45,931 nucleotides of DNA from contig CANQSJ010000020.1 of NCBI GenBank assembly GCA_947626495.1, forward strand, positions 1-45,931, written 5' to 3'. The position numbers were made by a program, and so were the translations under genes. Under the pieces are notes generated by a model. The model ran no database searches and had not been told where the DNA came from. It saw only the letters and a program-made list of their open reading frames with translations. Positions 6,582-41,634 of this stretch are shown one piece after another (within the stretch, counting starts at the first letter, position 1; each line of letters opens with the position of its first letter). The DNA is from an uncultured Oscillospiraceae bacterium. Its GTDB lineage: Bacteria; Bacillota; Clostridia; Oscillospirales; Oscillospiraceae.

Positions 6582-6595
6582 GCGGGTGTGATCCG

Positions 6596-8596: not shown

Positions 8597-8636
8597 GGGT
8601 GTTCTCCCTTCCGGCGCACAGCGCTGCTCTTTGGGT

Positions 8637-8666: not shown

Positions 8667-8749
8667 GGGAGATTTCACCCGCCGGGCCGGTTCGCAGATG
8701 CGGAAAGGGGAGGGCCGGGCAAGGCCAGGTCCTCCCTCCGGGGTACGTC

Positions 8750-9795: not shown

Positions 9796-9818
9796 ACGTC
9801 TTTCCCCCTTTGCGAGCC

Positions 9819-9845
9819 ATTCTATGCGGGGGAGGACCGGCTTGT
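9819..9845 (-). promoter_or_regulatory. Candidate mother-cell (SigE/SigK-like) promoter of the cotJ operon
   Basis: On the minus strand, CATAGAAT at 9819-9826 fits the CATA-type -10 shared by SigE and SigK. An AC dinucleotide lies 17 bp further upstream (9844-9845), as in SigK promoters. The SigE -35 is poor. Confidence 0.4.
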
Positions 9846-9865
9846 TATCGGGACAAAAGCGGACG

Positions 9866-9898
9866 TGAAAAAGCGGCAGCCAGTACGGCTGCCGCTTT
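9866..9898 (-). terminator. Intrinsic terminator of the phosphofructokinase gene
   Basis: A 12-bp perfect stem (9870-9881 with 9887-9898), a 5-nt loop and a run of five T in the minus-strand reading direction. It lies 18 bp after the PFK stop codon. Confidence 0.9.
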
Positions 9899-9916
9899 CT
9901 GCTGTTTTGAAAGCCC

Positions 9917-11158
9917 TTACGCCTGGATCTTCTTCAGACGGGCATAGCGGGGCAGAGAGCACTCGGTGGGGCGCTCCGGCTGGCCCTGGATCAGGGGCAG
10001 CACATAGTCAATGAAGTCCTGGGTGACGCCGTTGTGCTCCGGGTTGATCCACTCCAGAGGCACCTTCTTTTCCGCGTTGGCCACGGAGGTGAGGGGAAGG
10101 AGGATGGTCTTGCACACATAGCCGCCCTTCTCGTCGGCGGCCCGCTCGAAGGCCACCATCTTGCCGGTCTCGCCGGCAACGGCGGACTGGACCGCCACGC
10201 GGCCGGCCAGTTCGGCCTCGTCCACGTCGGTCTTGGAGGCCAGGTGAGCGCCGCAGCGCTGCAGCAGACTCAGCTCAATGGCGCGGACCTTGGCGCCGGT
10301 ACGCTCCTTCACCATCTCGCCCAGACGGGACGCCAGTCCGCCCAGCTGGGCGTGGCCGAAGCCGTCGGTGGCGCTGGTCTTGGCCTGGGAGACGAACGTG
10401 CCGTCGGCGAAGTGCAGGCCCTCGGACACGGCCACCAGGCAGGATTTCTTCTCGTTGTAGATCCGCTCCACGTCCGCCAGGAAGGCATCCATGTCAAAGT
10501 CCACCTCCGGCAGATACACCAGATCGGGGCCCGCGCCGAAGTGGGTGGCGAGGGCGGCGGAGGCGGCCAGCCAGCCCGCGTGGCGGCCCATGATCTCCAT
10601 GATGGTCACCTGGCCGGTGGGATAGACCCGACCGTCCTTGGAGACCTCCATGGCGCTGGTGGCGATGTATTTGGCCGCGGAGGCGAAGCCGGGGCAGTGG
10701 TCGGTGCCCCACAGGTCGTTGTCGATGGTCTTGGGGATGCCCATGACCCGGCAGTCCCAGCCGGACTTGGACATGAAGCGGCTGATCTTGTCGCAGGTAT
10801 CCATGGAGTCGTTGCCGCCGTTGTAGAAGAAGTAGCGGACGTTGTGCTTTTTGAACACCTCCAGAATGCGCTTATAGTCGGTGTCGTCTACCTCGGGGTC
10901 GGCCAGCTTATACCGGCAGGAGCCCAGTTCGGAAGCGGGGGTGTTTTTCAGATAGGCCAGCTCCTGGGGGTCCTCCAGACCCATGTCATAGAGCTTGTCC
11001 GCCAGCACGCCGGTGATGCCGTGATCCGCGCCCAGCACCTGGGTGATCTCCTCCGCCTCAAGAGCGGCGGAAATGGCGCCGTACGCACTGGCGTTGATGA
11101 CGGCGGTGGGGCCGCCGGACTGGCCGATGACACATGCGCCAACGAGTTTTTCAGACAT
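9917..11158 (-). CDS. pfp: 6-phosphofructokinase, pyrophosphate-dependent type
   Basis: Glycolytic phosphotransferase converting fructose-6-phosphate to fructose-1,6-bisphosphate. Both residues that distinguish PPi- from ATP-users point to PPi: GGND at 114-117 (Asp where ATP enzymes have Gly) and PKTIDND at 142-148 (Lys where ATP enzymes have Gly). Other family motifs are GQSGGPTAVINAS (phosphate loop), MEIMGRHAGWLA and VSEGLHFADG. The ATG at 11158 has a strong GGAGGAA site; a longer frame to 11212 runs into the promoter. It is divergent from fba, the next step of glycolysis, with overlapping promoters between them. Confidence 0.93.
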   Translation of the reverse strand: MSEKLVGACVIGQSGGPTAVINASAYGAISAALEAEEITQVLGADHGITGVLADKLYDMGLEDPQELAYLKNTPASELGSCRYKLADPEVDDTDYKRILEVFKKHNVRYFFYNGGNDSMDTCDKISRFMSKSGWDCRVMGIPKTIDNDLWGTDHCPGFASAAKYIATSAMEVSKDGRVYPTGQVTIMEIMGRHAGWLAASAALATHFGAGPDLVYLPEVDFDMDAFLADVERIYNEKKSCLVAVSEGLHFADGTFVSQAKTSATDGFGHAQLGGLASRLGEMVKERTGAKVRAIELSLLQRCGAHLASKTDVDEAELAGRVAVQSAVAGETGKMVAFERAADEKGGYVCKTILLPLTSVANAEKKVPLEWINPEHNGVTQDFIDYVLPLIQGQPERPTECSLPRYARLKKIQA

Positions 11159-11197
11159 GATCGTTCCTCCAAAACAAGTATTTATTTCATGTTTTGG

Positions 11198-11229
11198 TTG
11201 ATTATAGCACAAAACTGCGGTAAAATAAA
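11198..11229. promoter_or_regulatory. Overlapping divergent promoters for pfp (minus) and fba (plus)
   Basis: Plus strand: TTGATT (11198-11203), 17-bp spacer, TAAAAT (11221-11226), leading to fba. Minus strand: a perfect TATAAT (plus-strand 11201-11206) with an extended-10 TG, and TTTATT (11224-11229) 17 bp upstream, leading to pfp. The two occupy the same DNA, so RNA polymerase can serve only one direction at a time. Confidence 0.7.
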
Positions 11230-11263
11230 GTCCACGGAAAAATAAAGTAAAGGAGTCTTTATC

Positions 11264-12232
11264 ATGCCTCTAGTAACCTCTACCGAAATGTTCAAGAAAG
11301 CGTACGACGGCGGCTATGCCATCGGCGCTTTCAATGTAAACAATATGGAGATCGTCCAGGGCATCACCGAGGCCTGCCGGGAAGAGCACGCCCCCGTGAT
11401 CCTGCAGGTCTCCAAGGGCGCCCGCGCCTACGCCAACCACACCTATCTGCTGAAGCTGGTGGAGGCCGCCGTGGAGGAGTGCCCGGAGATCCCCATCGTG
11501 CTCCATCTGGACCACGGTCCCGACTTTGAGACCTGCAAGAGCTGCATCGACGGCGGCTTTACCTCCGTGATGATCGACGCCTCTTCCAAGCCCTTTGCCG
11601 AGAACATCGAGATCACCCGCAAGGTGGTGGAGTATGCCCACGACCACGGCGTGGTGGTGGAGGCCGAGCTTGGCACCCTGGCCGGCGTGGAAGACGAAGT
11701 GAAGGTCTCCGCGGAGGATTCCTCCTACACCCACCCCGAAGAGGTGGAGGAGTTCGTTACCAAGACCGGCTGCGACAGCCTGGCCATCGCCATCGGCACC
11801 AGCCACGGCGCTTATAAGTTCACCGCCGCTCAGTGCACCCGCAACGAGAAGGGCATCCTGGTTCCGCCCCCCCTGCGCTTCGACGTGCTGGAGGAGGTCT
11901 CCCGCCGTCTGCCCGGATTCCCCATCGTGCTCCACGGCTCTTCCTCCGTGCCCCAGGACTACGTGAAGATGATCAACTCCCACGGCGGCAAGATGCCCGA
12001 CGCCGTCGGCATCCCCGAGGAGCAGCTGCGCAAGGCGGCCAGCCTGTCCGTGTGCAAGATCAACATCGACTCCGACCTGCGTCTTGCCATGACCGGCACG
12101 ATCCGTCAGTTCTTCGACGAGCATCCCGACAAGTTTGATCCCCGGGAGTATCTGAAGCCCGCCCGCGCCAACATCAAGGAGCTGGTCCGCCACAAGCTGG
12201 TGGACGTTCTGGGCTGCAGCGGCAAAGCCTGA
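11264..12232 (+). CDS. fba: Class II fructose-1,6-bisphosphate aldolase
   Basis: Zinc-dependent aldolase that splits fructose-1,6-bisphosphate into dihydroxyacetone phosphate and glyceraldehyde-3-phosphate. The 322-aa protein shows HLDHGPDFETC (catalytic Asp and metal His), EAELGTLAGVEDEV (Glu), AIGTSHGAYKF (metal His) and VLHGSSSV (phosphate loop and His), then KINIDSDLRLA. The ATG is preceded by AAAGGAG. It faces pfp across a shared promoter region, so two consecutive glycolytic steps are paired. The next gene begins 3 bp after its stop. Confidence 0.97.
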   Translation: MPLVTSTEMFKKAYDGGYAIGAFNVNNMEIVQGITEACREEHAPVILQVSKGARAYANHTYLLKLVEAAVEECPEIPIVLHLDHGPDFETCKSCIDGGFTSVMIDASSKPFAENIEITRKVVEYAHDHGVVVEAELGTLAGVEDEVKVSAEDSSYTHPEEVEEFVTKTGCDSLAIAIGTSHGAYKFTAAQCTRNEKGILVPPPLRFDVLEEVSRRLPGFPIVLHGSSSVPQDYVKMINSHGGKMPDAVGIPEEQLRKAASLSVCKINIDSDLRLAMTGTIRQFFDEHPDKFDPREYLKPARANIKELVRHKLVDVLGCSGKA

Positions 12233-12235
12233 TTG

Positions 12236-13936
12236 ATGGGCTTTCTGCGGGAGATAAAACAGGCAGTGGCCGGTCACGGCCACGACTGCACATGCGACGA
12301 CTGCATGACCGAGCATCACCACGACCATCACGGTTTTGACACCGTGATGGTCTGGCGCTTGGTCACTTCTGCTGTGTTTTTCATTGGCGGAGCGGTGGCC
12401 GGCGACACGTTGCCCTGGCTCTCGCTGGCGCTGAACGCGCTGGCGATCCTGGCGGCGGGCTATGACGTGTTTATCCGCGCCGTGGCCAATATCTTCCGCC
12501 GGAGGCTGTTCGACGAGAGCCTCCTTATGAGCGTGGTGGCGGTGGCCTCCGTCATCATCGGCGAGGCCAGCGAGGGTGCCAGCGTGATGATCCTGTATCA
12601 GCTGGGCGAGCTGTTCCAGGGCTTCGCCGTGGCGAAGGTCCGGCGCAACATCGAGGGGCTGATGGAGAACCGCTCTCCCGAGGCCAGCGCCGCCTTGGTG
12701 GAGGTCCGCTCCGATAGGGGACCCAAGGGCCGCACGGAGGACTTTATCACCCACTTCGCCCGGATCTACACGCCGGTGGTCATCGGCATCGCCTTTGCCA
12801 TTGCGGTGATCTCCCCGCTGCTTTTGAAGACCACCGTCACGGAGGGGATCTACCGGGCGCTGGTGCTGATGGTCATCGCCTGCCCCTGCGCCATCGTGAT
12901 CTCCGTGCCCCTGAGCTACTTCGCCGGCATCGGCGGCGCCACCCAGCAGGGCATCCTCTTCAAAAACACCTGCGCCATGGACAATGTGTCCCGGGCAAAG
13001 ACCGTGATCTTCGACAAGACCGGCGCGCTGGAAGGGGAGGGGCTGCGGGTCACCTCCGTGAAAAGCGAACGGATGGACCCGGAGGTGTTCCTGCGCATCG
13101 CGGCCCACGCCTGCGCCTATTCCGAGAGCCCTTATGCCGAGGCGGTGAAGGCCGCCTATAAGGGCGTCATCTATATCGAGCTCATCGAGAGCTTCCAGCA
13201 GCAAAAGGACCCCTTCGGCATCACCGTGGAGGTGGATGGGGTCAAGATCCTGCTGGGCCCGCTGGAGTTCGTCCGCGGGCAGGGGATCGACCCCGGCGGC
13301 GATGTGCTGGCGGAAAACTGCATCTATCTCTCCATCGACGGGCAGTATGCCGGCCGGATCGTCTTCGGCAGCGTGGCAAAGCCGGACGTGTCCGGCGCCG
13401 TCACGGTCCTCAGCTGGGACAACGACCGCCAGATCGTCATGATCACCGAGGACAGCGCCGCCGCCACGGAGAAATTTGCCCGCCAGGTGGGCATCGGTCA
13501 GTTCTATCCCGACTGTCCGCCGTCGGAAAAGGTGGCGGTGGTGAAGGAGATCAAAAACACCCAGCTCCGCCGCGGGAAGCTGATCTTCGTGGGCGACGCG
13601 GAGACCAGCGGCGACTGTATCCGGGCTGCGGACGTGGGCGTTTCTCTCAACGGCGCTACCTCCGACGCCGCCATTCAGGCCGCGGACGTGGTGATCATGG
13701 GCGCGGAGCCCAGCAAGGTGGTCACCGCCCTGGAGGCCGCCAAGCGCACCCGCACCATCGTCTGGCAGAACATCCTGTTCGCACTGGCCTTCAAGGCCAT
13801 CATTCTGGTGCTGGACATGTTCGGCACCTGCCCGCTGTGGCTGGCCGTGTTCGCGGATGTGGGCGTGGCCCTGCTGGCGGTGCTCAACTCCCTGCGCGCC
13901 TTCGTGCAGCATGAGGCCGTCATCCCCGAGCAGTGA
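12236..13936 (+). CDS. Degenerate P1B-type (Zn/Cd-like) ATPase lacking the actuator domain
   Basis: 566-aa membrane protein related to ZntA/CadA zinc-cadmium pumps. It has an N-terminal Cys/His-rich segment (HGHDCTCDDC, HHHDHH; residues 14-32), six to eight membrane segments, the CPC motif (216-218), DKTG with phosphorylatable Asp260, and VFADVG in the last membrane pair, all typical of P1B-2 pumps. Odd points: the whole actuator domain with TGES is absent (only ~20 residues join the helices at ~148-168, where ~115 are expected), DKTGT is DKTGA, the HP motif reads ESP, TGD reads TED (404-406), and GDGxNDxP is GDAETSGD (453-460). Pumping is unlikely by known mechanism. The frame is intact and follows fba by 3 bp with only a weak ribosome site. 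Confidence 0.85.
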   Translation: MGFLREIKQAVAGHGHDCTCDDCMTEHHHDHHGFDTVMVWRLVTSAVFFIGGAVAGDTLPWLSLALNALAILAAGYDVFIRAVANIFRRRLFDESLLMSVVAVASVIIGEASEGASVMILYQLGELFQGFAVAKVRRNIEGLMENRSPEASAALVEVRSDRGPKGRTEDFITHFARIYTPVVIGIAFAIAVISPLLLKTTVTEGIYRALVLMVIACPCAIVISVPLSYFAGIGGATQQGILFKNTCAMDNVSRAKTVIFDKTGALEGEGLRVTSVKSERMDPEVFLRIAAHACAYSESPYAEAVKAAYKGVIYIELIESFQQQKDPFGITVEVDGVKILLGPLEFVRGQGIDPGGDVLAENCIYLSIDGQYAGRIVFGSVAKPDVSGAVTVLSWDNDRQIVMITEDSAAATEKFARQVGIGQFYPDCPPSEKVAVVKEIKNTQLRRGKLIFVGDAETSGDCIRAADVGVSLNGATSDAAIQAADVVIMGAEPSKVVTALEAAKRTRTIVWQNILFALAFKAIILVLDMFGTCPLWLAVFADVGVALLAVLNSLRAFVQHEAVIPEQ

Positions 13937-13948
13937 CGGATATCGACC

Positions 13949-13978
13949 CGCCCCGGAGTGGTCTCCGGGGCGATTTTC
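13949..13978 (+). terminator. Intrinsic terminator after the P-type ATPase gene
   Basis: A 10-bp GC-rich stem (13949-13958 with 13963-13972), a TGGT loop and an ATTTTC tail. Confidence 0.85.
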
Positions 13979-13987
13979 ATGGGTTGA

Positions 13988-14038
13988 TTTAAGGAAATCT
14001 TAAGAATTTCCCTCTTTTTTCTCTCCGTCTGATATGAT
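13988..14038 (+). promoter_or_regulatory. Likely autoregulated promoter of the response-regulator operon
   Basis: TTAAG occurs twice on the same strand at 13989-13993 and 14000-14004. This is an 11-bp period, typical of OmpR-family operators. A TATGAT -10 lies at 14033-14038, but the -35 position (14010-14015) reads CCCTCT, with no match to consensus. A factor bound just upstream would be expected to activate this promoter. Confidence 0.5.
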
Positions 14039-14067
14039 ACCTTATAGTCGTAAGGGAGGCGAAGAGC

Positions 14068-14754
14068 GTGTATACAGTGCTGATCTGCGACGACGACCGT
14101 GACATCCGGCGTGCGCTGAATATATATCTCACCGGCGCGGGATACAAGGTGCTGGAGGCCGCCAACGGCCGGGAGGCCCTGGCGCTGGCGGAGACCAGGG
14201 AAGTGCATCTCATCCTGCTGGATATCATGATGCCGGAGATGGACGGCGTATCCGCGCTGACGATCCTCCGGCAACGGAGCAATGTTCCGGTGATCCTCCT
14301 CACCGCCAAGAGCGAGGATGAGGACAAGATCATGGGCCTGGAACTGGGCGCGGATGACTATGTGACCAAGCCCTTCAACGCCCAGGAGGTGGTGGCGCGG
14401 GTGCGGGCGCTCCTGCGCCGGTATATGCGCCTGGGAGAGCGGCAGGACAAGCCCTCCATCCTCACCCTGGGGGGCATCGAGCTGGACGATGAGACCAAGA
14501 CCGTCACCGTGGACGGGGAGGAGATCACCATCACCCCCAAAGAATACGACATTCTGAAGTTTTTCATGGAGAATCCGGGTAAGGTATTCTCCAGCCGGGA
14601 GATATACAGCCGGGTCTGGCAGGACAAGCCCATGGGCGCGGAGGGCACGGTGGCCGTGCACATCCGCCATCTGCGGGAGAAGCTGGAGATCGACCCGGCG
14701 GAGCCGCGCTATCTGAAAGTGGTCTGGGGAAAGGGCTACAAGATCGAGGGGTAA
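14068..14754 (+). CDS. OmpR/PhoB-family response regulator
   Basis: 228-aa two-component response regulator. The receiver domain (1-~120) has the acidic pocket CDDD, phospho-acceptor Asp in LILLDIMMP (~residue 52), the conserved Thr in LLTAK and Lys in TKPF. A winged-helix DNA-binding domain follows (~130-228) with TPKEYDILKFF and AVHIRHLREKLE. Start is GTG at 14068 behind AAGGGAGG. It is followed after 6 bp by its histidine kinase. The direct repeats upstream suggest positive autoregulation. The stimulus is not evident from neighbours. Confidence 0.94.
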   Translation: MYTVLICDDDRDIRRALNIYLTGAGYKVLEAANGREALALAETREVHLILLDIMMPEMDGVSALTILRQRSNVPVILLTAKSEDEDKIMGLELGADDYVTKPFNAQEVVARVRALLRRYMRLGERQDKPSILTLGGIELDDETKTVTVDGEEITITPKEYDILKFFMENPGKVFSSREIYSRVWQDKPMGAEGTVAVHIRHLREKLEIDPAEPRYLKVVWGKGYKIEG

Positions 14755-14760
14755 GGGCAC

Positions 14761-16734
14761 ATGAGAGCTGTCATGGAAAAGCTGTGGTTCCGGCTTCTAA
14801 TGCTGGCGCTGTTTCTCGTCAGCGCCGCGGTGGCCCTGCTGTCGGCATCCATGTTCCGCTATATGCTGGTGGACGGCTGGTTCACCGACGATTTTCAGTT
14901 TGAGGACTCGTCCCTGTGCGTGAACTATGTGTCCGAGTGTCTGTACACTGTGTCGGCCAACCTGAACTGGCTGAAGGACCCCAGCAGCACGGATCTGGGC
15001 GGCTACGGCGGGGAGGCCTTCTCCTATCGCATCCTGGAAGGCGACACGGTGCTGGCGGACACCACCAACGAGCGCTCCCACGCCGTCACCAGTCTGTCCA
15101 CGGAGCTGGACAGCGACGCGGAGGTTGCTGTCCTGCCCGCCGCGGCCGTGGAAGAAGATGCATTCTCCAATTATTCGACCCCGGCCCCTTATTCAATACC
15201 GGAGGCCCCGGCTGATAGAGTGGTGGTTTATACCATCGAGGGCTATGTGAACCTGCCTGTGGAGCCCTACGAGGGCTGCTACCGGGAGTATTACATCTTC
15301 CAGCACATCCATCCCATCCGGACGATCTTCCTGCCGCTGGCCATCGTCGGCGCGGTGCTGGCGGCGCTCTCGCTGGCCGTGAGCCTGACGGCGGCGGCAT
15401 TTGAGGGGAGGAAGGGGCGTCTCACCCTTCTGGGCCGGTTCCCCTTCGACGTGATGGCGGTGGGGTTGTATATCCTCAGCGCGCTGGTCGGCGATGTCAT
15501 CGAGAACTGGACGTACGGGCTGAGTATGGGAGTCCTGAGCACGATCGGCATCAGTTACCGGCGCATTGGAAGCGTCTGTCATCTGTTTGCGGCGGCGTTG
15601 GGCGGCTGCTGTCTGGCCAATCAGCTGGGCGGGAGGGTGTTCAAAGAGAAGCTGCTCCTGCGCCGGGTGATCCTGCGGGTGCCCCCGCTGGCCATCGCGG
15701 TGGGTATACTGGCCGCGAACATCGTCGGCGTGATGGCGACGCTGCTGGTGGAGGACGTGATCGCCTTTGCGCTGATTGTGTTCGATCTGGCGCTTATCCC
15801 CTGCGCCGTCAAGTGGGGCCTGGAGGCCCGGAGCATCCGCAAGGCGTCGTCGGCCCTGGCCGCCGGCGAGCTGCGCTATAAGGTGGACACCGGCCGGCTG
15901 CATACGGTATGGAAGGACCTGGGGGAGGATCTCAACAGCATCGGCGACGGCATGGCGCTGGCCGTGGAGGAGCAGATGCGCTCCGAACGAATGAAGACGG
16001 AGCTGATCACCAACGTCAGCCACGACCTGAAAACGCCCCTCACGTCCATTGTCAATTACGTCCAGCTGCTCATGGAGGAGGACCTCCCGGAGAAGGAGCG
16101 GCGGGAGTACCTGGAGGTACTGGACCGGCAGAGCGCCAAGCTGAAAAAGCTCACCGAGGACGTGGTAGAGGCCTCCCGGGCCGTCAGCGGCGCCCTGACC
16201 GTCAGCGCCGAGGTATTCGACGTGCGGGAGCTGCTGGAGCAGTCGGCGGGGGAGTACTCCGAACGCATGGCCGCCGCCGGCATCGAGCCGGTGATGCACC
16301 TTCCCGCCGGCGAGACCTACATCCTGGCCGATCCCCGGCTGCTGGGACGGGTGCTGGATAACCTGACCACCAACGTGCTGAAATATGCTCAGGCGGGCAC
16401 CCGCGCCTACTTCGATCTGGAAGTCGCCGACGGGGAGACGGTCATTGCCGTGAAGAACATCTCCCGGGAGCCGCTGGATATCCCGGCGGATGAGTTGATG
16501 GAGCGCTTTGTCCGGGGTGACAGCTCCCGGAGCACCGAGGGAAGCGGGCTGGGCCTGTCCATCGCCCGGAGCCTGACGGAGCTCATGGGCGGCCGGCTGC
16601 AGCTGACGCTGGACGGGGACCTTTTCAAGGCGGAGATCATCTTCCCGTCGGCGGAGGCCCCGGCACTGCCGGAGATGGAAGCGCCGGAACCGGAGGAAGA
16701 GACGGCAGGGGAGAGCGAGCCCGGGAACGCCTGA
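14761..16734 (+). CDS. Multi-transmembrane sensor histidine kinase
   Basis: 657-aa partner of the preceding regulator. An N-terminal helix (~10-33) leads to an extracytoplasmic region (~35-185). Several membrane segments follow (~187-213, 228-247, 258-288 and 305-350), an unusually large membrane part. A HAMP-like linker, the HisKA box NVSHDLKTPLTS (His421) and a HATPase domain with NLTTNVLKY and GSGLGLSIA complete the kinase. The C-terminal 25 residues are rich in Glu and Pro. The arrangement resembles VanS-type or envelope-sensing Firmicutes kinases, but the signal is unknown. A strong terminator follows. Confidence 0.92.
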   Translation: MRAVMEKLWFRLLMLALFLVSAAVALLSASMFRYMLVDGWFTDDFQFEDSSLCVNYVSECLYTVSANLNWLKDPSSTDLGGYGGEAFSYRILEGDTVLADTTNERSHAVTSLSTELDSDAEVAVLPAAAVEEDAFSNYSTPAPYSIPEAPADRVVVYTIEGYVNLPVEPYEGCYREYYIFQHIHPIRTIFLPLAIVGAVLAALSLAVSLTAAAFEGRKGRLTLLGRFPFDVMAVGLYILSALVGDVIENWTYGLSMGVLSTIGISYRRIGSVCHLFAAALGGCCLANQLGGRVFKEKLLLRRVILRVPPLAIAVGILAANIVGVMATLLVEDVIAFALIVFDLALIPCAVKWGLEARSIRKASSALAAGELRYKVDTGRLHTVWKDLGEDLNSIGDGMALAVEEQMRSERMKTELITNVSHDLKTPLTSIVNYVQLLMEEDLPEKERREYLEVLDRQSAKLKKLTEDVVEASRAVSGALTVSAEVFDVRELLEQSAGEYSERMAAAGIEPVMHLPAGETYILADPRLLGRVLDNLTTNVLKYAQAGTRAYFDLEVADGETVIAVKNISREPLDIPADELMERFVRGDSSRSTEGSGLGLSIARSLTELMGGRLQLTLDGDLFKAEIIFPSAEAPALPEMEAPEPEEETAGESEPGNA

Positions 16735-16744
16735 GCCTGTATCC

Positions 16745-16780
16745 ATAAGAAAGACGCGGCACACGCCGCGTCTTTCTTAT
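16745..16780. terminator. Bidirectional terminator between the kinase gene and dut
   Basis: A 16-bp perfect stem (16745-16760 with 16765-16780) with an ACAC loop and A/T-rich arm ends, able to stop transcription from both sides. It overlaps the stop codon of dut (16777-16779). Confidence 0.9.
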
Positions 16781-17187
16781 TGTCCTGTGCTGCCGAAGCC
16801 GCCGTCGCCCCGCTCAGTCACCTCCAGGGAATCCGTCAGCTCCAGCTCCGGGGTCAGGATGGGCAGGATCACCAGCTGGATCAGCTTTTGGCCCGCCTCA
16901 ATGGTTACGTCCACGTCGCCCTGGTTGTAGAGCTTCACCACGATGGGGCCGGTATAGCCCGCGTCGATGACCCCTTCGCCCAGGATGTTTTTCTTTACAT
17001 TCAGGCCGCTCTTGCTCTTGAGCATGCCCACGTATCCATTCGGGATGGCCACGTGTACGCCGGTGTCCACCGTGGCGTGTCCCCGGGCGGGGATGACCAC
17101 GGCGCGGAGGGCGTACAGATCCAGTCCCGCGTCGGTGGGATGGGCCCGGGTGGGCATGATGGCGCCCGGATCTAAGGTTACCTTCAT
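16777..17187 (-). CDS. dut: Deoxyuridine 5'-triphosphate nucleotidohydrolase (dUTPase)
   Basis: Trimeric enzyme that hydrolyses dUTP to dUMP and PPi, keeping uracil out of DNA. The 136-aa protein carries the five dUTPase motifs: AGLDLYA, KSKSGLN, GVIDAGYTGPI, AGQKLIQLV and the C-terminal GDGGFGSTGQ. The ATG at 17187 has AAAGGAGAA upstream; a longer frame from 17208 begins on the far side of that site and is unlikely. It is followed by the convergent terminator and preceded by the DHHW gene, whose stop is 17 bp away. Confidence 0.96.
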   Translation of the reverse strand: MKVTLDPGAIMPTRAHPTDAGLDLYALRAVVIPARGHATVDTGVHVAIPNGYVGMLKSKSGLNVKKNILGEGVIDAGYTGPIVVKLYNQGDVDVTIEAGQKLIQLVILPILTPELELTDSLEVTERGDGGFGSTGQ

Positions 17188-17204
17188 GGCGTTCTCCTTT
17201 GTGC

Positions 17205-18326
17205 TCACATGGACAGCAGGAACAGGTTCTGGTCTGTGGTGAAATTGGGTACGCTATACAGCACCAGCACGCTGTCAAAGCCGTTGTCGTTGATATACCG
17301 GGTGAGGGAGTCCCGGTAATAGCGCAGGTCCACCAGGTCGATGCGGGAGAAATGCTCCAGCAGGAAGGGGACGAGGCTGTCCGCGTAGGAATCCCGCACG
17401 ATCAGCAACGTGGGGCCGTCGTGGCCGGTGTCGATGCTGCGCAGGGCGGAGTTGCCTCCCAGGAACATGGAGTACTTGTCCTTTACGTCCAAAAAGGACG
17501 TCACATAGAGCGGCCCCTCCTGGGGCGGGTTCTTTTCCAGATTCATCACGGTGACGGACCCGTCGTCGGGCACAAAGGTCTCGATGGTGTCCGGCTTTAC
17601 CCAGGTGAAGCCGGAGGAGGACCAGGTGGTGCCGCAGAAATCCTCGCTGACCGTTTGCCGGTCATAAGCGGACAGGGGGGAGGGGGTCAGGCCCATGCTC
17701 TCACACAAGGCGGTGTAGCCGTAATAGGCCCCCAGGCTGGTCCAGTGGTGGTCGGTGCGGTAGAAGATATACTCGTCCCGGTGGGCGGCCAGGGCGGTCT
17801 GCACGTCCACGTTGCCGGCCGTGGACCGGGTGCGGCCGTAGGCCCAGTCCAGCACCGTCTGCTGGCTGTCGGCGGGGGCGTTTTTGGGCAGGAGAGAGGC
17901 GTTGATCTCCGTGGCGCCGGGAATGAGGCCAAAGTAGACCGGCGTGTCCACATTCTCCGCCAGGGCGTTCACATAGTCCGCCCGGCGGTCGATCTCCTCC
18001 TGGCCGGGGTTGTCGAAGTCCGGCAGGATGGTGTCGCCGCAGTAGTAGGAGCCGTTGTTCTCCTTTTTGCCGCTCAGCAGCTCACACCGGGCTTTCATAG
18101 CGATCCAGCCGTCCCGGAAGGCGAACTGTTCGGTGGTGTAGTCCTCGAAGTCCTTGGTGAATTTCCCGGAAAAAAGCGCCTTGAAGGAGAAGTCCGGCAG
18201 CATCTGCAGGTATTTGTTCTCCTGCGGGGAGAATTCCCGGTCCGGCGTGACGATATTCAGCACGAAGAACCCGCCGATGAACAGCAGGAACACCGCTATG
18301 GCGATGATCTGACAGGTCTTTTTCAT
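17205..18326 (-). CDS. DHHW-family protein (AlgJ/AlgX/DltD-like)
   Basis: 373-aa exported protein with an uncleaved signal or membrane anchor (residues ~6-24) and an SGNH-like extracellular domain. The DHHW motif is in FYRTDHHWTSLGAYYGYTAL, and LIVRDSYADSLVPFL looks like the Ser-containing block of the fold. Such proteins act with MBOAT acyltransferases to move acetyl or other acyl groups onto surface polysaccharides. It directly follows an MBOAT gene (9-bp gap), supporting that role. The acceptor glycan is unknown because no glycan-synthesis genes are nearby. Confidence 0.88.
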   Translation of the reverse strand: MKKTCQIIAIAVFLLFIGGFFVLNIVTPDREFSPQENKYLQMLPDFSFKALFSGKFTKDFEDYTTEQFAFRDGWIAMKARCELLSGKKENNGSYYCGDTILPDFDNPGQEEIDRRADYVNALAENVDTPVYFGLIPGATEINASLLPKNAPADSQQTVLDWAYGRTRSTAGNVDVQTALAAHRDEYIFYRTDHHWTSLGAYYGYTALCESMGLTPSPLSAYDRQTVSEDFCGTTWSSSGFTWVKPDTIETFVPDDGSVTVMNLEKNPPQEGPLYVTSFLDVKDKYSMFLGGNSALRSIDTGHDGPTLLIVRDSYADSLVPFLLEHFSRIDLVDLRYYRDSLTRYINDNGFDSVLVLYSVPNFTTDQNLFLLSM

Positions 18327-18335
18327 CGCGTCACC

Positions 18336-19760
18336 TCAGAAACGGAAGTACAGGAAGGGGTTGTAGGTAGAATCCACCAGGTAGGCGGTGGAGATCACCA
18401 GCACCAGCACGATCAGCGCCGGCACGGCTACGGACCGGAGTTTTTCCGGGAGCCGGGCAAACAGCGTCTTGCCCGCCGGGAGACTGGCAAAAATGGCCGC
18501 CGCCAGCAGCAGTCCGAACCCGGCGAGATAGTAGAGATCCTGCCCGGCGCAGAAGCCCGCCTGGCCGAAGCCGTACATGGCCCGGAAGAACACCAGCGTC
18601 TGGCTGACGCTGGTCTGCTGGAAGATGACCCACCCGGATATGGCCACCAGCAGTGTGTAAACATGGCCCACGATCTTATGCCTGTCCAGCCACTTCAGCA
18701 GGAACATCTTCTCCAGGATCAGGAAAAAGGCGTAGTAGAGGCCCCAAACGAGGAACGTCCAGCTGGCGCCGTGCCAGAGTCCGGTGAGGGCCCACACGAT
18801 CAGCAGATTGAGAAGCTGCCGGGGCAGGCCCCTGCGGCTGCCGCCCAGGGGGATATACACATAGTCCCGGAACCAGGTGCTCAGACTGATGTGCCAGCGC
18901 CGCCAGAATTCGGTGACCGTGCGGGAGATATAGGGATAGTTGAAGTTTTCCAGAAACTCAAATCCCAGCATCTTTCCCAGGCCGATGGCCATATCGGAGT
19001 AGCCGGAAAAATCAAAGTAGATCTGCAGGGAGAAGGCGATGGCCGCCAGCCACGCTCCCACAAAGGTCAACTCCGAAGCCGTGGCGTTGGCGTACACGTC
19101 CCAGAGCATCCCCACGTTGTTGGCAATGAGGACCTTTTTTCCCAGGCCCACCACGAACCGCTGTACGCCGTCGGCAAACTGGTCCAGGGTCTCGTGGCGC
19201 TCGTCCAGCTGCCGGGCGATGTCCTTGTAGCGGACGATGGGGCCGGCGATCAGCTGGGGAAACAGGGCCACGAAGGTGCCGAATTTGATGAAATTCTTCT
19301 GCACATAGCTGTCGCCCCGGTACACGTCGATGGGGTAGCTCATGGTCTGGAAGGTATAGAAGCTGATGCCGATGGGCAGGCTCAGTCCCAGCTTGGGCAC
19401 GCGCACGCCGGGGATCAGGCTCAGCGTATCCGCCACCAGATCGAAATACTTAAAGAAGAACAGCATCGCCAGGTTCAAAACGGTGTTCACGATGAGCACC
19501 GCTTTGGCCCGGGGCCGGTCGCCCTGGGCATGCCTGCCGCCGGTGCCGGCGGACAGGTACCGCGCGATGAGCAGGCCGCTGAAGTAGTTCAGACAGATGG
19601 AGAACAGCATCAGCAGGATATATACCGGCTCGCCCCAGCCGTAAAAGACCAGGTTCACCACAAAGAGCCAGAGGTTCCGCCACCGGCCGGGGACGATGTA
19701 ATACACCGCCAGCACGATGGGCAGATATATAAATAGAAAGAGGATGCTGGAAAAAACCAT
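18336..19760 (-). CDS. MBOAT-family membrane O-acyltransferase (AlgI/DltB-like)
   Basis: 474-aa polytopic membrane enzyme, first gene of a two-gene acylation unit with the DHHW protein. Recognisable segments are WGEPVYILLMLFSICLNYF near the N terminus, FDFSGYSDMAIGLGKMLGF, EFWRRWHISLSTWFRDYVYI and the active-site His region LTGLWHGASWTFLVWG. MBOAT proteins carry acyl groups across the membrane to extracellular acceptors such as alginate, teichoic acid or peptidoglycan. The AGGAGG site for the ATG at 19760 overlaps the end of the recombinase gene, so it probably shares that transcript. Confidence 0.93.
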   Translation of the reverse strand: MVFSSILFLFIYLPIVLAVYYIVPGRWRNLWLFVVNLVFYGWGEPVYILLMLFSICLNYFSGLLIARYLSAGTGGRHAQGDRPRAKAVLIVNTVLNLAMLFFFKYFDLVADTLSLIPGVRVPKLGLSLPIGISFYTFQTMSYPIDVYRGDSYVQKNFIKFGTFVALFPQLIAGPIVRYKDIARQLDERHETLDQFADGVQRFVVGLGKKVLIANNVGMLWDVYANATASELTFVGAWLAAIAFSLQIYFDFSGYSDMAIGLGKMLGFEFLENFNYPYISRTVTEFWRRWHISLSTWFRDYVYIPLGGSRRGLPRQLLNLLIVWALTGLWHGASWTFLVWGLYYAFFLILEKMFLLKWLDRHKIVGHVYTLLVAISGWVIFQQTSVSQTLVFFRAMYGFGQAGFCAGQDLYYLAGFGLLLAAAIFASLPAGKTLFARLPEKLRSVAVPALIVLVLVISTAYLVDSTYNPFLYFRF

Positions 19761-36145: not shown

Positions 36146-37198
36146 TCAGTCCTCGCTCTCCGGCTTGATGTCGATCTTAATGCCGGTCAGCTTCGCGGCC
36201 AGGCGGGCGTTCTGGCCCTCCTTGCCGATGGCCAGGGACAGCTGGTTGTCCGGCACAATGACCCGGCAGCTCTTGCCCTCCTCGTCCATATAGACATGCA
36301 GTACCTCCGCCGGGGACAGGGCCGCAGCCACATATTCCTCGGGGATCTCGCTGTATTTGACGATATCGATCTTCTCGCCGCCCAGCTCGTCTACCACGCT
36401 GGACACACGGCCGCCCCGGGGACCCACGCAGGCGCCGATGGGGTCCACGTCCGGCGCGGTGCTCCACACGGCCATCTTGGTGCGGGAGCCGGCCTCCCGG
36501 GCGATGGACATGATCTCCACGGTGCCGTCGGCAATCTCCGGCACTTCCAGCTCAAACAGCCGCTTCACCAGCACCGGATGGGTCCGGCTGATGAGAACCT
36601 GGGGGCCGCGGGCGGACTTGCGGACTTCGATGACGTACACCTTCATCCGCTTGCCCTCCACCAGCACCTCGTCCCGGATCTGCTCGTTGACGCTGAGCAG
36701 CGCGTCGGTGTACTCGGAGTTGGAGCTGATCTTCAGAGCGGCGTTGCCGGTACGCGGGTCGATGCGGGCCACCTCGCCGGTGAGGATCTCGTGCTCATGG
36801 GTAGTGAACTCGTCGTAGATCAGGCCGCGCTCCGCCTCGCGGATGCCCTGGATGATCACCTGCTTGGCGTTCTGAGCGGCGATGCGGCCCAGCTCCTTGG
36901 TGTTCACGGGGACCTTGATCTGACCGCCCACCTTGGCCCGCTTGGAGATCTTCCGGGCCTGCTCCAGGGTCATCTGGGTGGCGGGGTTCTCCACCTCGTC
37001 CACCACGTCGGTGACCACGAACATCTCGATGCGCTTTTTGTCCTCGTCCAGTTCCACCACCACGTTGTCCGCCGCGTCGGGGTTATCCTTGCGGAAGGCG
37101 GTCAGCATGGCCTGGTTGATCTTGTCGTACATATATTCACGGGGAATGCCCTTTTCCCGCTCCAGATCCTCAATCGCTTCAAAAAATTCGGCGTTCAT
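36146..37198 (-). CDS. nusA: Transcription termination/antitermination factor NusA
   Basis: 350-aa RNA polymerase-binding factor. N-terminal domain ([28 protein letters not shown], here split over residues 4-31), an S1 domain around 132-200, and KH1/KH2 with [22 protein letters not shown] and [18 protein letters not shown] follow in order. There is no long C-terminal acidic repeat, as in other Gram-positive NusA proteins. The ATG at 37198 has GGAGGATAAAG upstream, which places the true start after the frame opening at 37216. The leader terminator of this operon is a plausible autoregulatory target. Confidence 0.97.
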
Positions 37199-37212
37199 AG
37201 CTTTATCCTCCG

Positions 37213-37665
37213 TCACATTTCCAGCCGCAGACGCACGCTGGCGATTTGATTTTTGGAAAACCGGCGCTCTCCGCCGGAATCAACGGTCACATCCCCGTCC
37301 TCGTAGGCCAGGAGCTTTCCCACCCACTGTTTGGCCCCGTCCGCGGCGCTGTAGAGCTTTACCTCCACGTTGGAGCCGAGAAAGCGTTCGAAATCGGACG
37401 GGCGCTTGAGCGATCTCTCGCACCCGGCAGAGCCCACCTCGAAGATGTAGCTGTCCGGTACCGGATCCGCCTCATCCAAAATGGGGTCCAGCTGGCGGGA
37501 GACCCGCTCACAGGCGTCCAGATCCACTCCGTCCGGCCCGTCCAGGAACACGCGCAGATAACGCTGTCCTCCCTCGGTGACGTATTCCACGTCCCAGAGC
37601 TCCAGCCCGGCCTGCTCCACCACCGGCAAAGCCAGGTCCCACACGGTTTTTTCAATACGGTTCAT
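37213..37665 (-). CDS. rimP: Ribosome maturation factor RimP
   Basis: 150-aa protein needed for 30S subunit assembly. Diagnostic parts are WDLALPVVEQAGLELWDVEYV, RYLRVFLDGPDGVDLDACE, YIFEVGSAGCERSLKRPSDF and the SH3-like C terminus (VKLYSAADGAKQWVGKLLAY). It is the first gene of the nusA-infB operon, 79 bp before an overlap-free start of nusA's reading frame. The ATG at 37665 has a weak GGAAAA site. A frame extending to 37776 would include the leader terminator and promoter, so it is not the start. Confidence 0.95.
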   Translation of the reverse strand: MNRIEKTVWDLALPVVEQAGLELWDVEYVTEGGQRYLRVFLDGPDGVDLDACERVSRQLDPILDEADPVPDSYIFEVGSAGCERSLKRPSDFERFLGSNVEVKLYSAADGAKQWVGKLLAYEDGDVTVDSGGERRFSKNQIASVRLRLEM

Positions 37666-37703
37666 ACAGATTTTCCAGTTTCTGACAAATTCTTTTAGTT
37701 CAA

Positions 37704-37729
37704 GAAAAAGAGTGGGACGGTACCCACTC
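37704..37729 (-). terminator. Leader terminator (attenuator) before rimP-nusA
   Basis: Between the operon promoter and rimP, the minus strand has a 7-bp stem GAGTGGG/CCCACTC (37723-37729 with 37710-37716), a 6-nt loop and TTTTTC. Because it lies inside the leader, it would stop transcription before the structural genes unless read through. The stem is short and the T-tract is interrupted, a pattern expected of NusA-dependent termination. Confidence 0.7.
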
Positions 37730-37754
37730 CAGGAATAGGACATTTGCTTCATTG

Positions 37755-37783
37755 AATATACCATATAACCCTGCATAAATCAA
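37755..37783 (-). promoter_or_regulatory. SigA promoter of the rimP-nusA-infB operon
   Basis: Minus strand: TTGATT (37778-37783), 17-bp spacer, TATATT (37755-37760). Start site near 37748 gives an ~80-nt leader containing the attenuator. Confidence 0.8.
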
Positions 37784-37845: not shown

Positions 37846-37908
37846 TCACATTCCGTCCTCCAGGTGCTCCCGCAGCTTCTCCAGCGCCCTTTTTTCGATG
37901 CGCGATAC
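37846..37908 (-). pseudogene. sigK: 3' end of sigK (sigma-K), split from its 5' part
   Basis: Minus-strand codons 37908 to 37849 read VSRIEKRALEKLREHLEDGM, then a TGA stop (37846-37848). VSRIEKRAL is the end of region 4.2 of sigma-K, normally preceded by the RSY of the recognition helix. Here the preceding residues are QTRRRK, unrelated to sigma factors, and in frame they run back to the stop codon of the serine recombinase. The sigma homology thus begins abruptly, as in the spoIIIC half of sigK in organisms where skin-type elements split the gene. The 5' part is not in the window. Reassembly after excision in the mother cell would restore sigK. Confidence 0.75.
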
Positions 37909-37943
37909 TTTCCGCCGCCGGGTTTGTAAGCGATGGGGCCTTG

Positions 37944-37963
37944 AAAACGCGCCGTGTGGCGCG
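37944..37963 (-). terminator. Intrinsic terminator of the serine recombinase gene
   Basis: A 6-bp GC stem (37948-37953 with 37958-37963) with a 4-nt loop and TTTT on the minus strand, 12 bp after the recombinase stop. The element-chromosome junction must lie between here and the sigK fragment. Confidence 0.65.
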
Positions 37964-37974
37964 GTGGTTGTGTG

Positions 37975-39552
37975 TCACTGTACGTCGTTCAATTCACAGA
38001 ACCGAAACCGTATAATGATCTGTTTGTTCTCCGTGAGTTCTACCCTTTCAATGAGACTCACCAGCAGTTCCCTGTTGACCCAGGCCGTGTCTATGAACCG
38101 GCGGACAAGTGCCTTTGCCTGCTCCTCCCGCTTCTCCGGCGTGGCATCTGGCTCCTCCATGCTGGCCAGTTGGTCCTCCAGAGAGCGCCGCTCCTGCTTG
38201 ATGCGCCCGTATATACGGTCAAAGTCTGCCTCCGCCAAAAGTCCGTTCAGCTTATCCATGTACGTCCTGTCCAGGTCGGCGGTCAGCTTTTCGATCCTGC
38301 CCCGAAGGGCCTGACGCTCGTTTTCATGGCGTTCTGCTTGTCGTGCTTTTTCAACTTCCGCCTCTGCCACGGGAAGCAAGGCGTCCGCATCCAGATACTT
38401 CTGGCAGACCTTCTGGATTTGGTCGATGACCGCCGCCGTGACTGTACTTTCCTTGATGGCGTGGCTAGTACATACGCCTGCCTTTGTGAACCGTTGATAG
38501 GTCCGGCAGACGAAGTAGAGAACGTCCTCCCCTGCTGCGTTCTTGCGGTTTATCACGCATAGCGGATAGCCGCACTCATGGCAGAAGATGAGTCCTTTCA
38601 GCAGAAAGTCATATTTCCGCACCTGCGTGGTCTTTCGGCTGCGGACAAGCATTTGCACTTTCTGAAACGTCTCCGTGTCTATGATCGGCTCATGAGTGCC
38701 CTCCACCACCACCCATTTATCCCTGGGCTGTTTCACGCATTTCTTGGACTTGTAGCTGATTTTTACCGACCGGCCCTGGACCATGTTGCCGATGTACGTC
38801 TCATTCTGGAGCATATCGGATATGCGCTCACTGCTCCACAGGCCCGTATAGGGGCCAGGATTGGAAATGGTCAATCCTGCATAGGTGGCCGGGGTGGGCA
38901 CATGTTCCTCGTTCAGCCGGGCGGCGATCTGGCGGCAGCTTACCCCCTCCAGGGCCATAGCAAATATCCGCTGCACCAATGGGACGGCCAGCTCGTCCGG
39001 CACGATACGGTTTTTCTCCGTTGGGTGCATTTTATAACCGAACAATGGCTTGCCGCCGATAAACTGCCCCTTGCGCTGTTTGTCGTGCTTGACGCTGCGT
39101 ATCTTTTTGGATATGTCCTTGGCGTACATATCGTTCATAACGGCCCGAAAAGGCGTGATGTCGTTGGCGCTGGATTCAACGCCCGTGTCGATGCCGTCCA
39201 GCAGGGATATGTAGCGGACACGGTTTTCGGGGAAATACCGTTCCATGTAATGCCCGGTCATGATGTAGTCACGGCCCAGGCGGGACAGGTCTTTAGTAAT
39301 TACCATGTTTACCTTCTTGTCCTCGATGTCCCCGATCATGCGTTGAAAGGCCGGTCGGTCGAAACTGGTGCCGCTCCATCCGTCGTCGATATAGGTATCA
39401 TACACGGTCAAGCGGTGCTGCCGGACAAAATCATCCAGCAGCGATCGTTGGTTGGTGACGCTCTCTGACGGTCCCTCGTTCTCATCCTCCTTTGAAAGCC
39501 GAATATAAAGTGCCGCGTGGTAGGCCATTGGGTCGCTTATCTCGAAGTACAT
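37975..39552 (-). CDS. Large serine recombinase (TndX/SpoIVCA-like)
   Basis: 525-aa site-specific recombinase. The N-terminal catalytic domain has nucleophile Ser20 (YIRLSKEDE), the DDGWSGTSFDRPAFQRM block and KDLSRLGRDYIMTG. A recombinase domain (~170-290, GYKMHPTEKNRIVPDE), a zinc ribbon (CHECGYPL ... CRTYQRFTKAGVC, ~320-365) and a long coiled coil (~385-470) follow. This is the architecture of integrases of Tn4451/Tn5397-type elements and of the sigK-element recombinase SpoIVCA. Its stop is 66 bp from the sigK 3' fragment. The ATG at 39552 has GGAGGCGAG upstream. It likely excises the element; mother-cell control, if any, is not evident from its upstream sequence. Confidence 0.95.
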   Translation of the reverse strand: MYFEISDPMAYHAALYIRLSKEDENEGPSESVTNQRSLLDDFVRQHRLTVYDTYIDDGWSGTSFDRPAFQRMIGDIEDKKVNMVITKDLSRLGRDYIMTGHYMERYFPENRVRYISLLDGIDTGVESSANDITPFRAVMNDMYAKDISKKIRSVKHDKQRKGQFIGGKPLFGYKMHPTEKNRIVPDELAVPLVQRIFAMALEGVSCRQIAARLNEEHVPTPATYAGLTISNPGPYTGLWSSERISDMLQNETYIGNMVQGRSVKISYKSKKCVKQPRDKWVVVEGTHEPIIDTETFQKVQMLVRSRKTTQVRKYDFLLKGLIFCHECGYPLCVINRKNAAGEDVLYFVCRTYQRFTKAGVCTSHAIKESTVTAAVIDQIQKVCQKYLDADALLPVAEAEVEKARQAERHENERQALRGRIEKLTADLDRTYMDKLNGLLAEADFDRIYGRIKQERRSLEDQLASMEEPDATPEKREEQAKALVRRFIDTAWVNRELLVSLIERVELTENKQIIIRFRFCELNDVQ

Positions 39553-39601
39553 ATCTCGCCTCCAGCAATAAGCGGCCATTCATCAATATAATTGTACGGC
39601 C

Positions 39602-39748
39602 TCATAGCGCAGTTGTCAAATTTTCGCGGTGCGCTCGGAGTTCTCTCTCAATAAAAACGCGCAGGCTCCTTTTGATGGAGTTTGCCGCGCTCTCCCCTTT
39701 CTCTGCATATTGGCATATCACGTCAAGTTCGCGTTCTTTTTTTGCCAA
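39602..39748 (-). CDS. Small protein upstream of the recombinase (48 aa)
   Basis: A short frame with TTG start at 39748 placed 6 bp after GGGAGGG; an in-frame ATG at 39754 is too close to that site. The product is charged and predicted mostly helical (KKERELDVICQYAEKGES, then SIKRSLRVFIERELRAHR). It ends 49 bp before the recombinase start on the same strand, so the two are probably co-transcribed. I do not recognise the family. A regulator or recombination-directionality partner is conceivable from position only. Confidence 0.5.
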   Translation of the reverse strand: MAKKERELDVICQYAEKGESAANSIKRSLRVFIERELRAHRENLTTAL

Positions 39749-39801
39749 GACCATCCCTCCCATCACAATAGGTTATGTGCCCGGCGGGCTGTTCTTGCCA
39801 G

Positions 39802-39841: not shown

Positions 39842-40190
39842 GGACGCCCGCACAGTTGGATGATATGGACCGACAGAGCCACCATATTTTGAATCCAGGC
39901 AAAACCAGACGGCGGCTGACAAGCCGCTCCATAGGTGGTGAGCCTCCCTCCATGCCCATGGCGGGGCGTCCTACGCTGTGACGCATAGCCGACGCAAGTA
40001 TCTTCTCCGTGTGCGTATCCTGGCCGACAGCTTTGCCAAAGCTGTGTGCGGCGCTGGTGTCTCTCGCTCTGCCCCAGGGGGACGTTTTGGCGCACCCGCC
40101 GCTTGGCTCCTCACACACGGAACGTATCTGGCTGCCCTATACTGCGCCGTCAGTCGCTACGCCGCTTTCTTTGTCAGGTCATGGGCTATG
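39842..40190. other. Apparently non-coding stretch inside the element
   Basis: About 350 bp without a convincing gene. Open frames on the minus strand exist but lack ribosome sites and recognisable sequence. It holds a 9-bp palindrome (40027-40035 with 40037-40045, CTTTGCCAAAG core). Otherwise I see nothing in it. Confidence 0.4.
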
Positions 40191-41337: not shown

Positions 41338-41382
41338 ATAATAATGCCTGTGCGCCCTATTAGGTAGCACAGGCATATTTTT
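41338..41382. terminator. Hairpin terminator downstream of the XRE gene
   Basis: A 10-bp perfect stem (41344-41353 with 41367-41376) with a 13-nt loop. The plus-strand tail is ATTTTTTATT and the minus-strand tail TTATTATTTG, so it can act in both directions. Confidence 0.7.
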
Positions 41383-41591
41383 TATTCTTCTCGGCCCACA
41401 AGGTAATCAAGAGACACTTGAAAGAAATCTGCAATCACCTTTAGCGTCTGTATGGACGGTTCCCTGTCTCCGCTCTCATACCTCGCAATCATATTATCTG
41501 ACAATCCGCACAACTCACTCAATGTTCTTCCGCTGAGCTTTTTCGCCTCCCGAAGTTTACGCAGACGGACGGGGAAAAGATCATTACCCAT
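41382..41591 (-). CDS. XRE-family transcriptional regulator
   Basis: 69-aa protein that is a single Cro/C1-type helix-turn-helix domain: LRKLREAKKLSGRTLSELCGLSDNMIARYESGDREPSIQTLKVIADFF spans residues 11-58, with recognition helix around SDNMIARYE. It probably represses element genes; the TTGTAAC repeats ~60 bp downstream are candidate targets. ATG at 41591 is preceded by GGTGA; a GTG at 41600 is an alternative. It follows the phoR-like kinase by 43 bp on the same strand. Confidence 0.88.
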   Translation of the reverse strand: MGNDLFPVRLRKLREAKKLSGRTLSELCGLSDNMIARYESGDREPSIQTLKVIADFFQVSLDYLVGREE

Positions 41592-41634
41592 ATATTTCAC
41601 CAACCATTATTGGCTTGGACAGCCCATTTTTATA

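Follow-up and report, generated by a model that had tools for sequence, protein, structure and literature searches.

In the uncultured gut Oscillospiraceae bacterium studied here (assembly GCA_947626495.1, hereafter G000), the sigK gene is split near codon 198 by an integrative element. With a probability of roughly 0.8, we consider that this element is excised by its own recombinase in sporulation to restore sigK, in the manner of skin elements, and that it belongs to a spreading family of cassettes. The analysis in silico establishes the two halves of the gene, the attachment ends, the recombinase, the recurrent targeting of a single site by an element that spreads horizontally, and the restoration of the reading frame. 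The DNA analyzed, hereafter called the window, is the entire contig C20 of G000 (45,931 nucleotides); the assembly has 62 contigs and 2.14 Mb and is 89.8% complete. It was compared with a set of 35 genomes of the genus and a set of 160 genomes from 106 genera of the family. SigK proteins were scored with the NCBIfam profile PRK05803 (cut-off 252 bits) and the stricter equivalog model TIGR02846 (cut-off 298.65), and synonymous divergence (dS) was computed by the Nei-Gojobori method.

Two Halves of sigK

The original prediction placed about 20 codons of the sigma-K C-terminal end within 37846..37977, fused in frame to sequence running back to the stop of a recombinase, and both statements hold. 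The minus strand encodes VSRIEKRALEKLREHLEDGM at 37908-37846 and reads stop-HTTTAPHGAFSRPHRLQTRRRK-VSRIEKRALEKLREHLEDGM-stop over 37977-37846, the first of these stops belonging to a serine recombinase of 534 aa (37975-39579, minus strand). The relevant features of the window are the following.

37846..37908, minus strand: sigK 3' part, the last 20 codons (VSRIEKRALEKLREHLEDGM) and stop; host-derived 3' of the GT dinucleotide
37900..37908, minus strand: 9-bp core GTATCGCGC, common to the sigK 5' end on contig C17 of G000 (L001 2128-2136)
37213..37776, minus strand: ORF read as rimP, host flank downstream of sigK, in the same order as in relatives
36146..37216, minus strand: ORF read as nusA, host flank collinear with relatives

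Searching the genome with the SigK model locates codons 1-198 of sigK at the right end of contig C17, in a frame ending ...GISRSYVSR-RCNCK; the contig terminates 181 bp beyond the 9-bp core. Since the cut falls near codon 198, the 3' piece amounts to only 20 codons. The prediction that sigK is split here by a skin-like element had called for a 5' part with the same short core, which could be sought only on other contigs as the window is a whole contig, and for the lack of another intact sigK. It is supported on both counts: the 5' half carries the core, and no intact sigK is found in the G000 assembly (89.8% complete), in which the only other near-full-length match to the SigK model is SigE. 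Joined in silico, the two halves yield ...GISRSYVSRIEKRALEKLREHLEDGM in a single frame. The joined protein scores 266.4 bits with PRK05803, above the cut-off of 252, as compared with 244.9 bits for the 5' part alone, and lies under the cut-off of TIGR02846 (265.8 vs. 298.65).

The gene order gdhA-sigK-rimP is found in relatives with intact sigK (G027, L163; G026, L205; G011, L206), all of which have the three genes in one stretch. In the window rimP comes after the 20-codon sigK piece, and the flanks on C17 and C20 agree with the order of the relatives. Moreover, both halves of sigK lie on one contig in G017 (~9.7 kb apart) and G025 (~15.9 kb apart). The match of 20 codons is thus not due to chance, because it is accompanied by the gene order of relatives, by a C17 half with the same 9 bp and by these two genomes carrying both halves together.

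Attachment Sites and Crossover

37909..37974, minus strand: right end of the element, attP half-site with arm GCTTACAAACCCGGCGGCGGAAA, conserved in 8 contigs
Predicted restored sigK junction: TATGTATCGCGCATCGA
Predicted attP junction of the excised element: GGAAAGTATCGCGCCGCTG

The right end is conserved in contigs of G000, G017, G020, G022, G025, G028, G033 (C43) and G034, and the left end (~117 bp) is common to G000 and seven others, that of G025 being diverged. On the left side, G020 and G034 have GTATCGCGCCG as in other elements, and on the right they retain the host's own codons (GTTTCCAGG and GTCTCGCGC). Because of these differences between host and element, together with the point about which the joined ends are symmetric, we infer that crossover occurs inside the GT dinucleotide at 37908-37907. 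The joined ends form an inverted repeat about this GT, with 17-19 of 25 positions complementary per side in five of the six elements tried, although these five are near-identical and therefore not independent; the sixth, of G022, is without an uninterrupted left end. The best other centre reaches 12, and none of 2000 shuffles attains the score in any element. The joined site of G000 combines the left end from C17 with the right end from C20, and these ends are tied together because they form one symmetric site when joined. Removal of the element at GT in silico restores the exact sigK frame.

The attP-like pattern of the sigK element has no match in the viral contigs of IMG/VR. Across the 35 genomes of the genus it retrieves four attR sites and one place in G027, with no excised junction. 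The G027 match was rejected as an attP, for it lies just upstream of an ORF read as recA-like and has no element sequence in common.

Recombinase and Candidate Directionality Factor

37975..39579, minus strand: large serine recombinase of 534 aa with Resolvase, Recombinase and Zn-ribbon domains; intact frame
39602..39766, minus strand: small ORF (~50 aa) immediately 5' of the recombinase gene; candidate directionality factor

The recombinase carries the motifs YIRLS (with Ser29) and SRLGRD. Matches of 96-100% identity are present in six other genomes of the genus (partial, 220 aa, in G034), the next match being 37% identical. With the models of the SCC cassette recombinases CcrA/B/C its best score is 114.8 bits, far below the NCBIfam cut-off of 900. 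A survey of 30 recombinase loci, out of a larger number of matches, shows that several adjoin genes read as encoding a DUF4364-like protein or phosphofructokinase, which are not sporulation genes. Given such neighbours, association with sporulation genes is not a general property of the wider recombinase family, and we do not claim from this survey any enrichment of its loci at them.

The small ORF (50-54 aa) is kept in six elements including that of G000, and a protein with a 44% match occupies the same place in L112; it has no match in Pfam. From its position it is a candidate for the recombination directionality factor. In the skin element of Bacillus subtilis, which likewise cuts sigK, the gene of the directionality factor, skr, is immediately upstream of the recombinase gene spoIVCA (PMC6957869, in the portion available).

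Element Interior and Cargo

39893..40176, strand not assigned: 284-bp repeat, common to the sigK elements of G017, G020 and G033 (C43) and to an element at G020:C9
40264..40953, minus strand: ORF with sigma-70 region 4
41382..41603, minus strand: HTH regulator, probably cargo; also next to phoR at G020:C9
41635..45931, minus strand: phoR-phoB-phoU-pstB-pstA; pstA (ORF reading) is cut by the contig end

Similarity of the window to the element on G033 C43 extends to 40827. The phoR-phoB-phoU-pstBA genes farther along are probably cargo of the element, a rearranged or misjoined chromosomal piece being the less probable alternative. The PhoR protein of the window is 97-98% identical to copies in G025 and G020, and the phoR-pst genes lie beside eno in G025, whereas at G020:C9 they follow another serine recombinase accompanied by the 284-bp repeat (gene names being partly readings). 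In G000, pstB is single-copy.

The elements of relatives carry different genes: a response regulator, an FtsX permease, a thioredoxin, an SBF-family permease (read as of arsenite type) and an AriA-like AAA_15 ATPase in G017, and an FtsX-like permease (below cut-off), a response regulator and DUF6034 proteins in G025. A PHROG scan covered ten cargo proteins, a part of the ORFs, from these two complete elements (four of G017 and six of G025), that of the window being incomplete. None of the ten has a phage-structural match; six have no match at all, and four matched families of unknown function plus one of DNA metabolism. On this sample of genes, the elements examined resemble mobile cassettes of variable cargo more than remnants of a prophage.

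Spread in the Genus

We found sigK in 32 of the 35 genomes of the genus. The match reaches residue 210-214 in 22 genomes, stops at codon 198/199 in nine (G000, G013, G016, G017, G020, G022, G025, G028 and G034) and is cut near codon 99 in G014. All nine cut 5' parts are free of internal stops. The corresponding 3' parts were found for seven of the nine, with none found for G013 and G016. Between G000 and six other carriers, the dS of the recombinase is 0.07-0.22, as against 0.49-0.80 when the sigK 5' parts of these genomes are compared (using the intact C1 copy for G033). The element is therefore far less diverged than the sigK gene surrounding it, which indicates horizontal spread between species after their divergence. 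Insertions at sigK are thus recent in the genus, and the conserved halves there are no proof of use after insertion. The presence in G033 of both an intact and a cut sigK was rejected: the 3' codons on C43 differ from those of the intact copy on C1, and contamination is 6%, so that C43 is probably a contig of another organism.

Insertions beyond the Genus

Within the family, SigK-like matches at E 1e-57 occur in 108 of 160 genomes (SigE possibly accounting for the weakest), and 14 of these matches end at residue 198-200. An element-like left end is present in ten of the 11 examined (G000 and nine genomes from outside the genus), G130, G162 and G166 having been left out of this comparison; G176 ends at 198-200 with no similar left end, and counts based on coverage alone are consequently misleading. 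The consensus of the left end across the family is approximately GT[AG]T[AC][CG]CG[AC]C followed by TGTAA. Both sigK halves are available in G181 and G102, with an intervening recombinase 65% and 75% identical and elements of ~6.2 and ~5.3 kb, respectively.

Eight further sigK matches begin near residue 44-48. In the two examined, G104 (L289) and G116 (L290), the first 52 codons (residues 8-52 in G116) are found upstream, with a serine recombinase between the parts and the cut near codon 45-52. The sigK of G014 is cut in CIENEIL by a 2.7-kb insert (L151, G014:C34, about 1943-4722), which seems from its sequence to be a minimal two-gene intervening element, its sole genes being read as those of a MATE-like transporter and a serine recombinase. 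Hence, sigK is interrupted at three or more different positions in the family. The skin site of B. subtilis, which we take to have its core AATGA in IENEIL, differs from that of the window and is of the kind used in G014.

Proposed Mechanism and Alternatives

The sequence data suggest the following mechanism, with excision inferred for the element in G000. By cutting sigma region 4, the element would leave the vegetative genome unable to make normal sigma-K. Integration would need the recombinase alone, acting on attP and attB. In sporulation, the recombinase plus a directionality factor, for which the small ORF is the candidate, would recombine attL with attR in the mother cell; excision would restore sigK and allow late sporulation to proceed. 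The forespore copy would keep the sigK element, and excision in the mother cell would thus cost it nothing. In the available portion of the work on Clostridioides difficile skin, the recombinase alone integrates attP into attB and excision needs the directionality factor (PMC5025042).

We regard it as rather improbable that the element is instead a recent mobile insertion without regulated excision, its carriers being unable to finish late sporulation until they lose the element or die out, and sigK being no more than an expedient attB, conserved and silent during growth. The element is indeed younger than its hosts in the genus, its cargo is variable (SBF-family and FtsX permeases, AAA_15 ATPase and phoR-pst, for example), and the excised form was not found in the 35 genomes of the genus or in IMG/VR. 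However, insertions in nine of the 32 sigK-bearing genomes of the genus, and in other genera too, are hard to reconcile with a lethal block of sporulation. Also against it, the halves of a split sigG remain under purifying selection (ω 0.035 and 0.037) through speciation in one species pair, as presented below.

It is very improbable that the two pieces in G000 are a relic or an assembly artefact, namely unrelated debris or a mis-join, even if they sit on different contigs of a 62-contig assembly and the phoR-pst genes next to the element match the locus beside eno in G025. G017 and G025 have both halves on one contig, eight right ends agree with each other, as do seven of the eight other left ends examined, the left end of C17 and the right end of C20 form one symmetric site, and the recombinase frame is intact. 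That the truncated SigK ending ...VSR-RCNCK is itself functional, excision being needless, is scarcely credible: the loss amounts to just 17 residues and spares region 2, but the score of region 4 drops from 54.3 bits (whole) to 32.8 bits (truncated), the replacement tails vary between elements, with a stop directly after V in G133 and G035, and the cut removes the end of the HTH that forms sigma-70 region 4.2.

Comparison with Known Systems

The reading of sigK as a gene restored by excision of a recombinase-bearing element can be compared with several known systems, cited here for the portions of the published accounts available. The skin element of C. difficile (CD1231 recombinase and CD1234 directionality factor) likewise cuts sigK, which is restored by one site-specific event, and its large serine recombinase lies immediately upstream of the sigK 3' part (PMC5025042). 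This is the layout of the window, and the recombinase adjoining the 3' sigK piece is accordingly the expected end of such an element, as originally proposed. In contrast with that skin, the elements examined here have yielded no recognised phage structural genes. The skin of B. subtilis (SpoIVCA and Skr) is a defective prophage (PMC6957869), whereas our elements resemble cassettes of variable cargo. The gin element, inserted in gerE of Bacillus cereus ATCC10987, is not of prophage type and, like ours, employs serine recombinases, cuts a sporulation regulator and has a shared 9-nt site sequence, showing that phage content is not required of intervening elements; it differs in its target, in having been studied in one strain, in its size of 28.6 kb and in its three recombinases (PMC5595907). 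Other excisable elements in sporulation genes are SP-β in spsM, vfbin in spoVFB, vrin in spoVR, yin in yabG and phi3T in kamA. As far as the available text goes, these five targets are mother-cell genes, SigK-controlled (yabG) or rebuilt in sporulation (kamA), and none is a forespore sigma factor like sigG (PMC4191935, PMC10747680, PMC6957869). Prophages integrated in sigK are described in other clostridia (PMC5025042, in the portion available), and the title of PMC13141910 reports a temperate phage that is identical to a prophage integrated in sigK.

Elements that cut sigK, prophages among them, and the non-phage gin in gerE are thus already known. What appears new, as far as we have seen, is the horizontally mobile cassette family at the sigK site, its breadth in Oscillospiraceae and the interruption of sigG.

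Interrupted sigG

L160 (G000:C13:5000-24900) 1909-18673: split locus of sigG, the forespore sigma gene
L273 (G056) 464-7645 and L271 (G151) 345-7541: split sigG loci of another genus

The sigG gene of G000 is cut at codon 95, with the 5' half at C13:23385-23672 and the 3' half at C13:6911-7411, 16 kb apart on one strand. A different serine recombinase, of 472 aa, lies beside the 5' half (L160 16917-18332), and the insert encodes ParB, NikA-like mobilisation, HepT and HipA-like (below the Pfam cut-off) proteins, a type III restriction-modification pair and SIR2. Since the cut falls within sigma region 2, neither half should work alone. Of the 35 genus genomes, 32 have a sigG match (G002, G004 and G030 have none): the gene is in one piece in 18 (from residue 38 only in G009) and cut at codon 93-96 in 12, G000 included, with matching junction sequences. 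A 13th split gene, in G010, is associated with a recombinase only 33% identical. Both halves are seen in seven of these 13 genomes and one half in the others. The genus element is mobile, given that in six carriers its recombinase shows dS of 0.09-0.19 vs. 0.34-0.63 for the sigG 5' part. Its attP pattern has no match in the 35 genomes of the genus, and its attP-like pattern none in IMG/VR viral contigs. In G012 the split sigG is accompanied by another piece of the gene, which covers residues 112-258, lies at a contig end and possibly reflects an intact copy or a mixture of strains. G007, the remaining one of the 32, is of ambiguous state: on C133 (L267 1090-2649) its sigG fragment starts at about codon 106, adjoins another serine recombinase and has a later frame break that may be due to decay or to a sequence error.

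Split sigK and split sigG occur together in seven of 29 genomes, sigK alone being split in three, sigG alone in five and neither in 14 (Fisher P 0.046; G002, G004, G007, G009, G010 and G030 left out). We do not use this association as evidence, since the species are not independent.

In the family, 133 of 160 genomes have a sigG match, and ten show a 3' half starting from residue 90-95 (a count that leaves out the partial matches in G035, G140, G164, G169 and G172). Nine of the ten (all except G156) were examined, G000 and eight others; six from outside the genus have an upstream recombinase 46-60% identical to that of the G000 sigG element, directly adjoining the 3' half in five and ~3 kb away in G145. 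The recombinase upstream of the 3' half in G038 is 32% identical. G074 was rejected as a case of split sigG, its match extending back to residue 59 through a stop with no clear split. The orientation of the element is opposite in the two groups, the recombinase adjoining the 5' half in the genus (L160) and the 3' half in the loci compared from other genera (L271-L273, L277, L278).

Only G056 and G151, which represent two species of a single further genus, have the 5' half on the same stretch as the 3' half among the examined genomes from outside the genus. They are collinear at 87% over 7.7 kb, in the order sigG 5' half, Fe-alcohol dehydrogenase, aldehyde ferredoxin oxidoreductase, recombinase and sigG 3' half, and each has one sigG match (E 1e-52). 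Their dS is alike across the block (0.29-0.44), so the insertion is most simply older than the split of the two species; the alternative is transfer of the whole block. The ω values of the sigG halves are 0.035 and 0.037 (bootstrap upper limits 0.12 and 0.10), compared with 0.155 for the recombinase and 0.12 and 0.075 for the cargo. In this one species pair, sigG has therefore apparently been inherited vertically and kept under strong purifying selection while split, for which rejoining of the halves would be the simplest reason.

We lean, by a small degree only, toward the view that sigK and sigG, and probably ssp, are interrupted in the family and work only after excision, with the sigG excision taking place in the germ line and the element either being lost at each sporulation or persisting as a spore-borne circle that re-integrates after germination. 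Excision for sigG would have to be in the germ line, because the cell in which sigma-G acts is the one that develops into the spore. The sigG element thus has no evident counterpart to the cost-free exit of the sigK element in the mother cell, and its fate may be read in two ways: loss at sporulation with frequent re-acquisition, which fits the dS values in the genus but not those of G056 and G151, and carriage as a circle with subsequent re-integration.

According to the published portions available, the sporulation genes found interrupted belong to the mother cell or are at least not presented as genes of the forespore; the account given is that, as excision happens in a cell bound to die, the spore retains the element (PMC4191935). 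We found no report of an interrupted sigG among the matches listed in the literature searched, which excluded most subscription journals. A recurrent, apparently vertically inherited and strongly conserved split sigG would break the rule of mother-cell genes only, and poses the question of where the element goes when the spore forms. In practical terms, sigK, sigG or ssp scored as missing or truncated in gut metagenome-assembled genomes may be split and not lost, which bears on predictions of spore formation.

Possible Cuts in ssp

L259 1627-1743 with L260 3093-3252 (G028): putatively cut ssp locus
L261 2255-2371 (G007): putatively cut ssp locus

The α/β SASP gene ssp is found in 28 of the 35 genomes of the genus. 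Two of them, G028 and G007, have a 3' part of ssp that starts at EVGV with a serine recombinase next to it. In G010, G016, G018, G020 and G029 (L262-L266), where no recombinase is seen in the stretches examined, ssp breaks near GGQMVKK into a similar foreign tail, possibly representing a second insertion site in this gene.
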